Both the position numbers and the translations under genes were made by a program. 48,266 nucleotides of DNA from a virus: positions 1-48,266 of IMG/VR virus record IMGVR_UViG_3300035232_000630. One strand, given 5' to 3'. Positions 10,261 to 16,503 of this stretch are shown here, in pieces. How positions within the stretch are numbered: the stretch's first letter is position 1; each line of letters opens with the position of its first letter. A model generated the notes under the pieces. That model saw nothing but the letters and a program-made list of their open reading frames with translations, did no database searches and had not been told where the DNA came from.

Positions 10261-10521
10261 ATGAGTGAACGTACCTATGGTGGCGAAGAAAAGGCGAAGC
10301 TAGAACGTCTTGTAAATGAAGGCGTGACAGTACTACAAGAAGTAGAAGACTTACAGGCTGGATTAAAGGATACTGTAAAAGCAGTAGCCGAAGAACTAGA
10401 TATTAAACCAAGTTTAATTAATAAAGCAATTAAGATTGCACAAAAAGGTGACTGGGCTCGTGTATACGACGAGTTTGATGATCTTGAAACTCTTGTTACT
10501 ACAGTTGGGCGTGATAAGTGA
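10261..10521 (+). CDS. DsbA-like double-stranded DNA-binding protein
   Basis: An 86-residue protein that is nearly all helical and acidic. Its length and pattern (GGEEKAKLERLVNEG, a central helix, then INKAIKIAQKGDW) resemble T4-type DsbA proteins. In T4, DsbA is an 89-residue dsDNA-binding protein implicated in late transcription. The assignment rests on recalled similarity to marine T4-like phage proteins and the size, so it is moderate. A consensus promoter precedes it and a small membrane-protein gene overlaps its stop. Confidence 0.5.
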   Translation: MSERTYGGEEKAKLERLVNEGVTVLQEVEDLQAGLKDTVKAVAEELDIKPSLINKAIKIAQKGDWARVYDEFDDLETLVTTVGRDK

Positions 10522-10793
10522 ATAAAGTAATAGTTTTTTTTAAAGATAGTCATCAAAGTAGTCCACTGGCATTCTATTGCGAAATGATTGAAGCAATATT
10601 TTTAATTAGTGCAAGTGCAATACTCAGCTTTACTATATTAGATCCTGCTACAAAAATATTTGTACCAATGTATCTAATTGGTAGTTTGCTTGGTATTGTT
10701 AGTGGAGTAATTCGAAATGCGGCATTTGTGGTTATACTATGTAGTTGGTTTACATTAATGAATGCATACGCATTAGTACAACTGTTTTTATGA
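10518..10793 (+). CDS. small integral membrane protein
   Basis: A 91-residue protein starting at GTG 10518, which overlaps the previous stop. It has about three hydrophobic segments (around residues 20-42, 48-65 and 66-90) and few charges after residue 25, so it should sit in the host inner membrane. Function unknown; phage membrane proteins of this size include holins, anti-holins and exclusion proteins, but no specific signature is present. Confidence 0.55.
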   Translation: MNKVIVFFKDSHQSSPLAFYCEMIEAIFLISASAILSFTILDPATKIFVPMYLIGSLLGIVSGVIRNAAFVVILCSWFTLMNAYALVQLFL

Positions 10794-11359
10794 GAATACT
10801 AGTTGCTGGAGATAGCTTTGCGGCACAATGGCCAGGCAACAATGGTTGGGTTAAATTACTTGCAAAAGAATTTGATGTGACTAACGTTGCTCAGGCCGGT
10901 GTTAGTGAGTATAAAATATTAAAGCAACTAAAACAAGAAAACATAGATGATTACGATTGTATTATCGTAAGTCATACAAGTCCTAGTAGAGTACATACAC
11001 CAAGTCATCCTTTACATAAACATGGTTTACATAAAGATTGTGATTTATTGTATAACGATATTGATCGAACAAGTTTCTTTAACCGTAGTCTATCAGCCGC
11101 AAAAGGCTATTTTAAATATCATTACGATGACCAATATCATTGCGATATATACCATCTATTACGGAAAGAAATTAATAATATATTAGCAACAAAAAATTAC
11201 ATTAGCATGTCACATATAGATATTGCAAAATTATTTATTGTTGAAGATAAACATATTGATTTTAGTGAATTTTGGAAAGAGAACAAAGGCAAAGAAAACC
11301 ACTATAGTAAAAAAGGCAACCAGAAACTGTGCAATATAATTGTTGACGCAGTTAAATAA
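10790..11359 (+). CDS. SGNH-hydrolase-like protein
   Basis: A 189-residue protein beginning MRILVAGDSFAAQW. GDSF is block I of SGNH/GDSL esterases and acetyltransferases, with Ser as nucleophile. A downstream Asn/Gly block, and a terminal HYSKKGNQK segment that could supply the catalytic His, fit the fold. The start at 10790 overlaps the membrane-protein stop; an upstream in-frame ATG would lie inside that gene. Two further SGNH-like proteins occur in the window (23329-24150 and 34460-34996). The substrate is unknown; deacylation of surface glycans or lipids is typical of the family. Confidence 0.55.
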   Translation: MRILVAGDSFAAQWPGNNGWVKLLAKEFDVTNVAQAGVSEYKILKQLKQENIDDYDCIIVSHTSPSRVHTPSHPLHKHGLHKDCDLLYNDIDRTSFFNRSLSAAKGYFKYHYDDQYHCDIYHLLRKEINNILATKNYISMSHIDIAKLFIVEDKHIDFSEFWKENKGKENHYSKKGNQKLCNIIVDAVK

Positions 11360-11371
11360 ACATGTTATAAT
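11343..11371 (+). promoter_or_regulatory. sigma70-type promoter for DNA polymerase
   Basis: TTGACG (11343-11348) and TATAAT (11366-11371) are separated by 17 bases. They overlap the 3' end of the SGNH-like gene. A leader of about 60 bases carrying a hairpin precedes the polymerase start. Confidence 0.75.
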
Positions 11372-11408
11372 AATAACAATACGCTGTATAATCGGCATGT
11401 AGAAGGCA

Positions 11409-11426
11409 CGTTGGCCATAAGCAACG
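11409..11426 (+). promoter_or_regulatory. putative gp43 translational operator hairpin
   Basis: CGTTG (11409-11413) pairs perfectly with CAACG (11422-11426) around an 8-base loop, GCCATAAG. The ribosome binding site AAGGAG follows immediately at 11427-11432 and the polymerase ATG at 11437. T4 gp43 represses its own translation by binding a hairpin with a 5-bp stem and 8-base loop next to its ribosome binding site. The geometry and position here are the same, though the loop sequence differs from T4 as I recall it. Confidence 0.55.
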
Positions 11427-11436
11427 AAGGAGCAAA

Positions 11437-14106
11437 ATGAGTTACGTAGACGCACTGTTTGACCGCGACCATGATCAGATCAAGGTAGTTGAACGCAAAG
11501 ACGGAAAGAGATCTTTCCGTGAATATCCTGTAAAATATACATTCTATTACAAAGATCAAAGAGGCAAGTACAAAAGTGTGTACGGAGATCCTCTAAGTCG
11601 TATTGTATGTAAAAACACAAAAGACTTTCGTAAAGAAGTTGCTATTAATAGAGATAAGCAACTATTTGAAAGCGACATTAATCCTATATTCCAATGTTTA
11701 AGTGAAAACTATCTTAATCAAGATGCACCTAAACTAAACATTGCATTTTTCGATATTGAAACAGACTTTGATCCAGAGCGTGGCTTTGCTGATCCTAGTG
11801 ATCCGTTCATGCCTATTACAAGTATAAGTGTATATTTGCAATGGATGGAAACAATGGTATGTTTAGCAGTACCTCCCAAGACACTTACTATGGAAGAAGC
11901 ACACAAGACACTTGAAGGTATTGACAATGTAATTCTATATGAAAAAGAAAGTGAAATGATTGATACTTTCTTAACACTAATTGAAGATGCTGATGTATTA
12001 AGTGGTTGGAATAGTGAAGGATATGATATTCCGTACACAGTAAACAGAACTAGCCGTGTACTAAGCAAAGATGACACACGTAGATTTTGTTTATGGGGGC
12101 AACTTCCGAAAAAACGTATGTATGAAAAGTTTGGTAAAGAAAGTGAAACATTTGATCTAGTAGGTCGTGTACATTTAGACAGTTTAAACTTGTATCGTAA
12201 GTATACGTATGAAGAAAGACACAGCTATAGACTTGATGCTATTGGAGAGATCGAAGTAGGTGAGAACAAAGTTCCGTATGAAGGAACACTTGACGCACTT
12301 TACAACAACGACTTTAGAAAGTTTATTGAATATAATATTCAAGATACTGCACTACTTGACAAACTAGATAAAAAATTACGTTTTATTGATCTAAGTAACG
12401 AACTAGCACACGCTAATACTGTTATGCTACAAACTACAATGGGTGCTGTTGCTGTTACAGAACAGGCTATTGTTAACGAAGCACATCACAGAGGTTTACA
12501 AGTTCCTAATAGGCAGAAACGTGATGATGAAAACACGCAGGCGGCTGGTGCGTATGTTGCATTTCCTAAAAAGGGCTTACACAAATGGATAGGTTCAATG
12601 GATTTAAATTCACTATATCCTAGTGTTATTCGTGCATTGAATATGGCGCCTGAAACTGTTATAGGACAGATACGTCCAGACATGAGCGATGCCCGTGTAC
12701 ATGAAGATATGGGGCTAAAGAAAAAGAGCTTTGCAGGTAGTTGGGAAGGACGTTTTGCTACAGAAGAATACGATGCTGTTATGGAACAAAAACGTGACAT
12801 TTCTCTTAATGTAGACTTTGAAAACGGAGAGACTGTAGTAATGAGCGGTGCAGAAGTTCATCGACTTATATTTGATAGTAATAATCCTTGGATGCTTAGT
12901 GCTAACGGTACTATCTTTACAACAGAGTTTGAAGGTGTTATTCCAGGCATTCTAAAGCGTTGGTATAGCGAACGTAAAGACTTACAGAAGATGCTTAAAA
13001 AAGCAAAAGATGCAGGCAACGCCGCAGAGATTGAGTACTGGGACAAACGACAGCTAGTTAAGAAGATTAACTTGAACAGTTTGTATGGTGCGATTCTTAA
13101 TCCTGGTTGTAGATTCTTTGATAAACGTATTGGACAAAGTACAACACTAACAGGACGCACTATTGTTAAGCATATGTCAGCAGAAGTTAACAAAACTATT
13201 ACAGGCACATATGATCATACAGGTGAAGCAATGATATATGGCGACACTGACTCTTGTTACTTTAGTGCATGGCCTGCTTTGAAGGCAGATGTTGAAGCTG
13301 GAAAAGTACCTTGGAGCAAGGAAAATGTTATTACACTTTATGATCAAGTTTGCGAAGCGGCGAACTTAACATTTCCTGAAATGATGCAAAAATCATTTCA
13401 TTGTCCAAAGAGTAGGTCGGACGTTATTGCGGCGGCTAGAGAAATTGTAGCTGAAAGCGGATTGTTTATTACTAAAAAGCGTTATGCGGCACTAGTTACA
13501 GACATTGAAGGCTTTAGAACAGATGTTGATGGTAAAGCAGGCAAAGTAAAAGCAATGGGCTTAGACTTGCGTAGATCAGATACACCTGTGTTTATGCAAG
13601 AGTTCCTAAGTGAGCTATTACTTATGGTACTTACAGACAAACCGCAACAAGAAGTATTAGATAGAATCACTGTGTTTAGACAAGACTTCCATGAACGTCC
13701 CGGATACGAAAAAGGTTCGCCTAAACGTGCAAACAAAGTCGGTCACTATCAGCGTTTAGAAGAAAAGCAAGGCAAGGCAAATATGCCAGGCCATGTACGA
13801 GCAAGTATTAACTGGAATACACTAAAGCGTATGAACGGCGACAAGTATTCACAAGAGATTGTTGACGGTATGAAAGTTATTGTTTGTAAACTAAAACAGA
13901 ATCCGCTGGGTTATACAAGTGTAGCATATCCAACAGACGAGCTTCACATACCTGATTGGTTCAAAGAACTGCCATTTGACGATTCAGCAATGGCAGAAAC
14001 AATTATTGATAACAAACTAGACAACTTAATTGGTGTGCTTAACTATCCACTAGAAGATACTAAGCGACACAACACATTTACAAGTTTGTTTGACTTTGGA
14101 GAGTAA
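11437..14106 (+). CDS. 43: T4-type family B DNA polymerase (gp43)
   Basis: The 889-residue product matches T4 gp43 in length (898). It has the 3'-5' exonuclease motif FDIETDF (D106, E108), a polymerase motif A DLNSLYPS beginning at D389, a KKINLNSLYG segment, and motif C YGDTDS with D603 and D605. It is the replicative polymerase and proofreader. An AAGGAG ribosome binding site precedes the ATG, with the probable autoregulatory hairpin just upstream and a sigma70 promoter before that. A clamp gene lies about 2.4 kb downstream, while the clamp loader and helicase genes are outside the window. Confidence 0.97.
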   Translation: MSYVDALFDRDHDQIKVVERKDGKRSFREYPVKYTFYYKDQRGKYKSVYGDPLSRIVCKNTKDFRKEVAINRDKQLFESDINPIFQCLSENYLNQDAPKLNIAFFDIETDFDPERGFADPSDPFMPITSISVYLQWMETMVCLAVPPKTLTMEEAHKTLEGIDNVILYEKESEMIDTFLTLIEDADVLSGWNSEGYDIPYTVNRTSRVLSKDDTRRFCLWGQLPKKRMYEKFGKESETFDLVGRVHLDSLNLYRKYTYEERHSYRLDAIGEIEVGENKVPYEGTLDALYNNDFRKFIEYNIQDTALLDKLDKKLRFIDLSNELAHANTVMLQTTMGAVAVTEQAIVNEAHHRGLQVPNRQKRDDENTQAAGAYVAFPKKGLHKWIGSMDLNSLYPSVIRALNMAPETVIGQIRPDMSDARVHEDMGLKKKSFAGSWEGRFATEEYDAVMEQKRDISLNVDFENGETVVMSGAEVHRLIFDSNNPWMLSANGTIFTTEFEGVIPGILKRWYSERKDLQKMLKKAKDAGNAAEIEYWDKRQLVKKINLNSLYGAILNPGCRFFDKRIGQSTTLTGRTIVKHMSAEVNKTITGTYDHTGEAMIYGDTDSCYFSAWPALKADVEAGKVPWSKENVITLYDQVCEAANLTFPEMMQKSFHCPKSRSDVIAAAREIVAESGLFITKKRYAALVTDIEGFRTDVDGKAGKVKAMGLDLRRSDTPVFMQEFLSELLLMVLTDKPQQEVLDRITVFRQDFHERPGYEKGSPKRANKVGHYQRLEEKQGKANMPGHVRASINWNTLKRMNGDKYSQEIVDGMKVIVCKLKQNPLGYTSVAYPTDELHIPDWFKELPFDDSAMAETIIDNKLDNLIGVLNYPLEDTKRHNTFTSLFDFGE

Positions 14107-14300: not shown

Positions 14301-14626
14301 GAGTAAGTGTAAATGATATAGGAGGCGAAGTTGCTAAGGAAGATGAAAGATATATTGTTAAAGATAATACGACATTAAAAAATTTAGTAGTAAGTAGTAC
14401 ACGCCTAAACCCACGCAAGGCAACAACAGGCCATAAGCACCCCGGACAAGAAGAAGTATATTACTTTATTGAAGGAACAGGTAAAATGGAACTTGATGAC
14501 GAAACAATTAAAGTACAGCCAGGCGATGTAGTATTAATTGAAGATGGTGTATTTCACCGAGTGCATGCAGGTATGTATGAAGAGCTATACTTTATTTGTG
14601 TGTTTGACGGTAAGAGGAATCATTAA
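14297..14626 (+). CDS. cupin-fold protein
   Basis: A 109-residue single-domain cupin. The first motif is GHKHPGQEEVYYFIEGTG, with metal ligands His, His and Glu. The second is PGDVVLIEDGVFHRV, with the last His. Such proteins are metal-dependent isomerases, epimerases or sugar-binding enzymes. It begins a four-gene run with a cytidylyltransferase, a phosphomannomutase-like HAD protein and a nucleotide-sugar dehydrogenase, so a sugar-phosphate isomerase or epimerase role is a reasonable inference. Overlaps on both sides indicate one operon. Confidence 0.75.
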   Translation: MRVSVNDIGGEVAKEDERYIVKDNTTLKNLVVSSTRLNPRKATTGHKHPGQEEVYYFIEGTGKMELDDETIKVQPGDVVLIEDGVFHRVHAGMYEELYFICVFDGKRNH

Positions 14627-15030
14627 TGAAAGTAGGATTTACCTGTAGTACTTTTGACTTATTACACGCAGGCCATTTGATTATGTTGCGTGAAGCAAAA
14701 GAACAATGTGACTATCTTATATGCGGATTGCAAGTTGATCCAAGTATAGATAGAAAAGAAAAGAACGCACCAGTACAAACAGTAGTAGAGCGTTATACAC
14801 AACTAAAAGGTGTTGAATATGTAGATGAAATTATTCCATACGGCACTGAAGAAGACCTCGAAGACATCCTTAGTATGTATCCAATTGATGTACGTATACT
14901 AGGTGAAGAATATCGAGACAAAGACTTTACAGGCAAAGATATTTGTCGTAAACGTGATATTGAATTACACTTTAACAAGCGAGATCATCGCTTTAGTTCA
15001 AGTGATTTACGGAGAAGAGTTTGTGAATAA
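14626..15030 (+). CDS. glycerol-3-phosphate cytidylyltransferase-like enzyme
   Basis: A 134-residue protein of TagD/GCT type. It has CSTFDLLHAGH with H14 and H17 of the HxGH signature, a central RYTQLKG, and RFSSSDLRRR near the C-terminus in place of the RxxxISTT motif. The length equals that of B. subtilis TagD (129). These enzymes transfer CMP to a phosphorylated alcohol or sugar, making CDP-glycerol or a similar activated unit. The start shares a base with the cupin stop. The exact substrate cannot be read from the sequence. Confidence 0.78.
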   Translation: MKVGFTCSTFDLLHAGHLIMLREAKEQCDYLICGLQVDPSIDRKEKNAPVQTVVERYTQLKGVEYVDEIIPYGTEEDLEDILSMYPIDVRILGEEYRDKDFTGKDICRKRDIELHFNKRDHRFSSSDLRRRVCE

Positions 15031-15727
15031 ATTTATATTTGATGTTGATGGTACACTAACCCCAAGTCGTGGGAAAATTAATTTAGAATTTAAGCAGTTT
15101 TTTAATACATTTTGTTTAACTAATGATGTATATCTTGTTACAGGTAGTGATAAGCCTAAAACTGTAGAACAAATAAGTGAAGAAACTTATAATTTGGCAA
15201 AACGTGTATATAACTGTTCAGGTTGTGATGTATGGGAAGCTAATAAGTCTGTAAGATCATCAGATTGGAATATGCCTAGAGAACAACTATCTTGGTTAGA
15301 AGATAAACTTGAAGAAAGTCGCTTTGTACTACGCACAGGACAACATGTTGAACAGCGTAATGGTATGGTAAATTTTAGTATTGTTGGCAGAGGTGCTACA
15401 ATAGGCGAACGTAAGCTGTATGTAGAATACGATCAAGAAAACAACGAACGTCAAACTATAGCAGACTTGTTTGAACATAGATTTATTAACATGCAGGCTA
15501 CAGTGGGCGGTGAAACAGGAATTGATATTGCTCCTAAAGGATCAGATAAAAGCCAAATACTTGTAGATTTTGCAGAAGAAGACACTGTACACTTTTTTGG
15601 TGATGCAATGTTTGAAGGCGGCAATGATTATCCTTTAAAAAGATCGTTATGGGAACGCGGTAATAGTTCTACACATCAAGTACATGATTGGAAAGATACA
15701 TGGGCTAAACTAAAGGAGCTCAAATGA
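15023..15727 (+). CDS. eukaryote-type phosphomannomutase-like HAD enzyme
   Basis: A 234-residue protein starting at GTG 15023 after GGAGAAG, overlapping the cytidylyltransferase stop. DVDGTLTPSR (7-16) gives the HAD nucleophile and acid/base Asp pair. The cap region (NGMVNFSIVGR), an E/D-rich YVEYDQ, and HFFGDAMFEGGNDYP near the C-terminus follow the alpha-phosphomannomutase (PMM2) layout closely, at nearly the same length (246). It probably interconverts hexose 6- and 1-phosphates, feeding nucleotide-sugar synthesis. Phage-encoded PMM of this eukaryote-like class is uncommon. A simple sugar phosphatase is the alternative. Confidence 0.75.
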   Translation: MNKFIFDVDGTLTPSRGKINLEFKQFFNTFCLTNDVYLVTGSDKPKTVEQISEETYNLAKRVYNCSGCDVWEANKSVRSSDWNMPREQLSWLEDKLEESRFVLRTGQHVEQRNGMVNFSIVGRGATIGERKLYVEYDQENNERQTIADLFEHRFINMQATVGGETGIDIAPKGSDKSQILVDFAEEDTVHFFGDAMFEGGNDYPLKRSLWERGNSSTHQVHDWKDTWAKLKELK

Positions 15728-16503
15728 GAATATTAATAGCAGGGTATGGATTTGTAGGACATGCTTTTGACAAAGCAGTTAATATGACAAACGAAATTAC
15801 AATAAGTGACCCTGCAAAAGGTTACTTAATTAACCATAACGATTTAGTGCAACCACAAGCTATTGTAATATGTGTTAGCACACCACAAGGTTCACATGGC
15901 GGATGTCATATGGATAATGTATATGAAGTAATTGAACAATCTCCTGATGTGCCTATCTTAATTAAAAGTACTATTAGTTTAGAAGGGTGGGAAATGTTAA
16001 AACATGTATTTCCTAACAAAAGTATATGTTTTAGTCCAGAGTTCTTACGTGCAGAAACAGCAGACGAAGACTTTAAAAACATGGACTATACCATAATTGC
16101 AGGAGATCCAAAAGATACAGAATTTTGGAATAATTGGTTCAAACAGCAAGTATGTTGGGTTGACTTAGAAATATATAACTGTCCGGTACCTGAAGCAATT
16201 ACACTCAAGTATGCTGAGAATAGTTATCTTGCACTTAAAGTAAGTTTCTTTAATCAGTTATACGACTTTTGTCAAGTAACAAATCAAGACTTTGAAACTA
16301 TGCGTAAACTATTATGCTTAGATAAAAGAATAGGTAATAGTCATAGTATGGTTACAGAAGAAAGAGGTTGGGGAGGACATTGTTTTCCTAAGGATACATC
16401 TGCTTTCCTAAAAACAGCAGAGAAATATAGTTATGATCTAAATATACTTAGAACAGCAGTAGATTATAATAAAAAAATAAGAAAAACTATTGACAACCAG
16501 TAG
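15724..16503 (+). CDS. short UDP-glucose/GDP-mannose dehydrogenase-family protein
   Basis: A 259-residue protein with an N-terminal Rossmann motif (IAGYGFVG, residues 5-12). It also has the family's KYAENSYLALKVSFFNQ central helix with catalytic Lys and Asn, and GWGGHCFPKD with the catalytic Cys at 220. It lacks the C-terminal UDP-binding domain found in typical 390-450 residue members and ends soon after the catalytic Cys block. It may oxidise or bind a nucleotide sugar in a reduced form, or need a partner. It follows the phosphomannomutase-like gene with a four-base overlap. Confidence 0.78.
   Translation: MRILIAGYGFVGHAFDKAVNMTNEITISDPAKGYLINHNDLVQPQAIVICVSTPQGSHGGCHMDNVYEVIEQSPDVPILIKSTISLEGWEMLKHVFPNKSICFSPEFLRAETADEDFKNMDYTIIAGDPKDTEFWNNWFKQQVCWVDLEIYNCPVPEAITLKYAENSYLALKVSFFNQLYDFCQVTNQDFETMRKLLCLDKRIGNSHSMVTEERGWGGHCFPKDTSAFLKTAEKYSYDLNILRTAVDYNKKIRKTIDNQ

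Follow-up and report, generated by a model that had tools for sequence, protein, structure and literature searches.

A conserved hairpin at the start of the polymerase gene

The window, which is the whole stretch of viral DNA analyzed here (48,266 nucleotides [nt]; IMG/VR record IMGVR_UViG_3300035232_000630), encodes a gp43-like family B DNA polymerase starting with the ATG at position 11437. Directly ahead of its Shine-Dalgarno (SD) sequence, we found a hairpin that ends 10 nt before the AUG (Table 1) and has a folding energy of -5.4 kcal/mol (RNAfold, hairpin alone). Direct reading confirmed the observation of the first-pass annotation that a 5-bp stem with an 8-base loop adjoins the polymerase ribosome binding site at exactly this place. 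Judged from the window sequence alone, the hairpin is not beyond chance expectation. Single-sequence folding by RNAfold was no better than for shuffles (z = -0.78), the fold of the 101-nt leader was also no better than that of shuffles (z = +0.64), and hairpins of this size with a perfectly paired stem (5 bp, 8-nt loop) are present in 650 of 13,780 40-nt stretches of the window (4.7%). Thus, the hairpin is significant because it is conserved in relatives and not by virtue of the single sequence.

Table 1. Features at the polymerase locus of the window
Feature	Position	Strand	Basis
Sigma-70-like promoter, TTGACG-17-TATAAT (11 of 12; TG before -10)	11343..11371	+	Sequence match
Hairpin 1, GCUG-UAUAAU-CGGC	11383..11396	+	Window fold and 83 marine-type leaders folded singly
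S1 5' strand, GGC	11405..11407	+	Pairs with loop bases 11414-11416
Polymerase hairpin, C11409-G11413 paired with C11422-G11426; 8-nt loop GCCATAAG at 11414-11421	11409..11426	+	
S2 5' strand, CGUUG	11409..11413	+	Direct reading, fold, unit alignment
S1 3' strand, GCC (bases 1-3 of the 8-nt loop)	11414..11416	+	Unit comparison, S1 pairing count
Loop L3, AUAAG; AA at 11419-11420 common to nearly all units	11417..11421	+	
S2 3' strand, CAACG	11422..11426	+	Direct reading, fold, unit alignment
SD sequence AAGGAG, directly 3' of S2	11427..11432	+	Direct reading
Family B DNA polymerase (gp43-like), 889 aa	11437..14106	+	PHROG 262 (E 9e-198); Pfam DNA_pol_B, DNA_pol_B_exo1

To analyze conservation, we used 80 close relatives from IMG/VR, which were found via the polymerase protein (87-100% identity). 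The exact pattern GTTGGCCNNAAGCAAC is present in 63 of them; in 9 of these 63 relatives, it is located 629-744 nt upstream of the polymerase, ahead of another gene. Eight of the remaining 17 relatives harbor variants of the pattern (L010, L046, L065, L066, L072, L074, L076, and L079). No pattern was detected in 9 of the 80 (L003, L004, L006, L007, L008, L012, L013, L016, and L017), and in these leaderless relatives (five of the nine were examined) the polymerase directly follows a small frame equivalent to 10518-10793 of the window. Six distinct leaders of polymerases with 90-92% identity lack the unit (L003, L006, L007, L012, L016, and L017), showing that the element is dispensable there. The window frame ahead of the leader (10790-11359) starts like an SGNH/GDSL esterase, as judged by eye and without Pfam support; neither this frame nor the leader is present in leaderless relatives (e.g., L004). 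The frames 3' of the polymerase (14626-16503) resemble heptose adenylyltransferase and UDP-glucose dehydrogenase and perhaps belong to a sugar-nucleotide cluster.

A scan of IMG/VR with the pattern revealed at least 121 places, at least 83 of which are ahead of a polymerase of the window's kind. Among the matches listed, at least 81 have an SD-like site no farther than 12 nt away; one place has an SD-like site yet no polymerase. When bacterial and archaeal genomes were scanned for the marine stem pattern together with an SD, eight places were found, and only one of them, in L207, leads into a polymerase of the window's kind. L207, a contig of 335 kb, is assigned to a Neomarinimicrobiota MAG and is probably a phage sequence binned with it.

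A common unit design, often in tandem

In distant relatives, whose polymerases are about 61-81% identical to that of the window, the letters of the element differ and its design is kept: GGY, a spacer of 1-5 nt, one half of a stem whose sequence is free, GCC, NNAAR, and the other half of the stem. In our strict definition of the unit, helix S1 (formed by GGY and loop bases 1-3), helix S2 (the stem), and one loop A were all required. A unit was present within 110 nt of the start in 167 of 195 distinct polymerase-found leaders, 104 of which have two or more units and 63 have one. Fourteen further leaders have a unit further upstream, ahead of an intervening gene, and 14 have none. The background was 187 units in 27,383 unrelated 110-nt windows (0.7%), a rate at which some of the 14 units further up may be chance occurrences. 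Many relatives have two units with their loops 27-30 nt apart, and the loop of the last unit begins 22-31 nt ahead of the polymerase start. The clade of the window has one unit and a separate hairpin (hairpin 1) rather than two units. In related marine and freshwater phages, the strongly conserved unit often occurs as two consecutive copies; units were not detected in the leaders of L239 and L280 or in relatives whose polymerase is 61-62% identical (L366, L367, L439, L441, and L448).

Two interleaved helices are supported by compensatory changes

Covariation across relatives, the check proposed along with the first-pass annotation, revealed a conserved structured element with compensatory changes at the polymerase ribosome-binding site. 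For S2, 46 distinct aligned units with 21 different 4-bp stems were analyzed. In these units, which were selected for S2 pairing, each of the five pairs shows changes on both sides, and 96.1% of the cells are paired. The covariation score was 1.06 compared to 0.32 in shuffles, and none of 500 shuffles scored as high. Sliding the S2 partner decreased pairing to 22-40%. Because the units were selected by S2 pairing, the independent evidence for S2 is the enrichment at fixed places over the background. The loop AA was likewise required in selecting the 46 units; where only the first A was required, the second was nearly universal.

S1 is paired in 44 of 44 trimmed units, in which the partners were chosen partly by pairing. 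Its middle pair is invariant. The variable pair is UG in 31 units, CG in 10, UA in 2, and AU in 1, and the other pair is GC in 43 units and AU in 1; full double changes are confined to a few lineages. Plain sister alignments, which are free of pairing choice, also contain such changes: GGC:GCC versus AGC:GCU in L010, and GGY:GCC versus GGA:UCC in L391 and L393.

S1 and S2 are interleaved and each is supported by covariation, S1 on the basis of few independent double changes. The natural reading of this arrangement is an H-type pseudoknot, and we consider the unit best read as such and not as a plain hairpin; S1 and S2 would coexist in it. In its natural layout, no nucleotide would separate the S2 5' strand from the S1 3' strand, the A-bearing loop would run beside S1, and the loop A's could dock in S1. 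A GGY/GCC hairpin (S1 apart) that switches with S2, the two being mutually exclusive, would also be compatible with the covariation.

The element is largely confined to the polymerase gene

We searched whole records with a covariance model, R1, which covers S2 and the loop without S1. Across 13 records (6.7-246 kb), the top match of every record is at the polymerase, as established by manual comparison of the places with the loci. The window contains a single R1 match with E < 0.8, which is the leader. The best matches in the records of L365 and L373 (63% identity) are weak (14.2 bits) and are located at the expected place. Among 22 further records, many of which were picked for having no visible unit, eight gave an R1 match, one each and at the expected place, again judged by manual comparison. 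Matches away from the polymerase were few and weaker and, apart from three in long contigs that were inspected, reached 15.5 bits and lower. The match in L452 lies inside a reading frame, and that in L453, ahead of an ABC-ATPase-like frame, has no GGY at the usual distance. The match in L454 (about 600-630), with GGU, a 5-bp stem, and a 10-nt loop, follows the end of a short frame and is not at a gene start. None of the three is a proper unit.

In cargo-type loci, a gene lies between the leader and the polymerase. In 26 of 27 loci classed in this way, the intervening gene stops between -1 and +4 relative to the start of the polymerase. This contact or overlap would suit translational coupling, through which a leader ahead of the extra gene could act on the polymerase. 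The intervening genes are unalike: 2OG-Fe(II) oxygenase-like (just under the Pfam cut-off), Trp halogenase, GDSL lipase, and an unknown MFKKEKK type. In L036, L057, L087, L123, L167, and others, unrelated extra genes occupy one spot, resembling a cargo hot spot behind the putative operator. L167 contains the leader twice, before the extra gene (2111-2126) and before the polymerase (2792-2807). The upstream flank of the two copies is the same over at least 30 nt, which looks like a duplication that accompanied the insertion.

Leader type follows the polymerase tree

With the promoter-like sequence of the window (Table 1), transcription would start near 11378, just ahead of hairpin 1. Promoter-like sites with at most two mismatches were found in 51 of 207 leaders, compared to 3.4% of control windows. 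In the clade of the window, hairpin 1 takes the place of the first unit, and relatives have stems of other sequence at this position (GCUC/GAGC, GUUC/GAAC, GUCC/GGAC, and GCC/GGC). We considered hairpin 1 as a degenerate unit and rejected this by eye: in the window, it has neither the GCC nor the AA loop.

In a tree of 191 polymerases, tandem leaders occur on either side of the midpoint root, single units are mostly found in one clade, and leaderless polymerases appear at several places. The leader type changes label 27 times on this tree, compared to 84 times in shuffles, showing that it follows the polymerase. The tandem arrangement may be older than the single unit.

A putative translational operator

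The element is structured, compensated, found at one gene, adjacent to the SD, and distributed along the polymerase tree. A translational operator is the best explanation for this combination, and, given the precedent of T4, the likeliest ligand is the polymerase. We therefore propose, with a probability of roughly 0.6, that the leader is an autogenous translational operator of the phage polymerase, built on an RNA different from that of T4; repressor function and ligand are here deduced from comparative sequence analysis. The operator would act in cis as a compact H-type pseudoknot, with S1 (GGY:GCC, 3 bp), S2 (4-6 bp of free sequence), the NNAAR loop, and the SD immediately 3' of S2. Free polymerase in excess of replication sites would bind and stabilize the knot, which would block 30S binding and shut off polymerase synthesis. 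With the polymerase occupied on DNA, the knot would breathe and translation would proceed. Where an extra gene lies in between, translational coupling would extend the effect to the polymerase. The knot thus probably lets the phage set the amount of its polymerase. The lack of the unit in some close relatives and in the deeper ones counts against this explanation.

The same structure would suit an operator for another protein, either a different RNA-binding protein of the phage or a protein of the host, because an S2 of arbitrary sequence and the small number of fixed bases are compatible with any shape-recognizing protein, and the structure itself names no ligand. We consider this unlikely, since the best R1 matches are at one gene only and RegA (PF01818) was found in just 1 of 14 records searched (G003:67731-68096), that of L365, whose polymerase leader has no strict unit. 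Promoter-like sites just upstream place the element near the mRNA 5' end, as expected for a structure that, without a ligand, sets basal translation or mRNA stability (a 5' hairpin or a stand-by site). Such a plain stabilizer needs no fixed GG..CC..AA, no compensated S1, and no doubled units, and this makes the explanation improbable.

The compact pseudoknot units bear a general resemblance to small riboswitches, and the position beside the SD and the tandem copies would fit one or two small aptamers, for example for a nucleotide. The fixed unpaired bases are few, mainly the AA, and in the genome scan, which was based on the marine stem sequence only, just one of the eight places leads into a polymerase of the window's kind; a small-molecule riboswitch is thus improbable. 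At the DNA level, GTTG-N8-CAAC is also an inverted repeat and might serve as a repressor site or form a single-stranded structure at replication. With the strand and the distance to the start fixed, an asymmetric and fixed loop, and G-U pairs in both helices, we give this explanation next to no weight.

To our knowledge, polymerase autoregulation has been worked out in detail only in T4 and its near relatives (PMC3014915). If the proposed autogenous operator is real, uncultured aquatic phages of a wide group control their polymerase gene by a different RNA fold, which is very small (about 20-25 nt) and varies naturally in copy number. The natural leader variants could then be used to test RNA recognition by a family B polymerase, and the unit would be a new, searchable RNA family. 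A more tentative proposal, to which we assign somewhat less than even odds, is that tandem minimal pseudoknots (3-bp S1, free S2, AA loop) are a new phage RNA family acting as a cooperative two-site polymerase sensor. The pair would be the ancestral state of a large uncultured clade, of which the marine clade with the window has kept a single unit, and would have evolved independently of the T4 operator.

Comparison with known systems

Searches against Rfam gave no gathering match, STAXI included, in the window or in 10 loci, and two leaders searched up to E 10 gave chance matches only, none of them to STAXI. The leader DNA had five weak matches in cultured phages, none of which was taken as a relative. 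Among the matches listed in literature searches, we found no published description of the element, which is weak evidence for its novelty.

T4 gp43 represses its own mRNA via a hairpin operator; according to a review, evidence for a pseudoknot is absent at this site, and the operator loops contain UAAC in T4 and RB69 and UAAA in RB49 (PMC3014915). The T4 sequence reads AGCCU-AAUAACUC-GGGCU. In both phages, a hairpin with a 5-bp stem and an 8-nt loop is located beside the ribosome-binding site of the same polymerase gene family. This part of the claim of a shared T4 geometry stands. However, the T4 hairpin ends 18 nt before the AUG instead of 10 nt, and pseudoknot S1, tandem units, the fixed GCC..AA, and another loop are found only on the side of the window. 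The loop of the window is GCCAUAAG; many relatives with GCCAUAAA contain UAAA, located elsewhere in the loop than in T4-type operators. In the T4 leader, no 3-mer just ahead of the stem pairs with the first three loop bases, as judged by eye. With R1, which comprises S2 and the loop only, T4 (L455) and the loci of 12 further cultured phages gave no match, and homology to the T4 leader was therefore not detected. A co-evolved T4-type loop is not supported: the loop provides half of a helix (S1) and a nearly invariant AA. As to conserved polymerase autoregulation, the element is conserved, covarying, and specific to the gene in the records searched, and autogenous control is the simplest reading, but the element is not that of T4.

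Two other systems are similar in architecture. T4 gene 32, also a replication gene, is under autogenous control via a leader pseudoknot, according to the same review (PMC3014915). The described architecture is alike, whereas the gene and the ligand are different. The STAXI motif is described as pseudoknots in tandem copies close to genes whose products handle DNA (PMC2864571). It shares with our units both the tandem arrangement and the kind of neighboring gene, and differs from them by its reported UUCG loops and two or three repeats.
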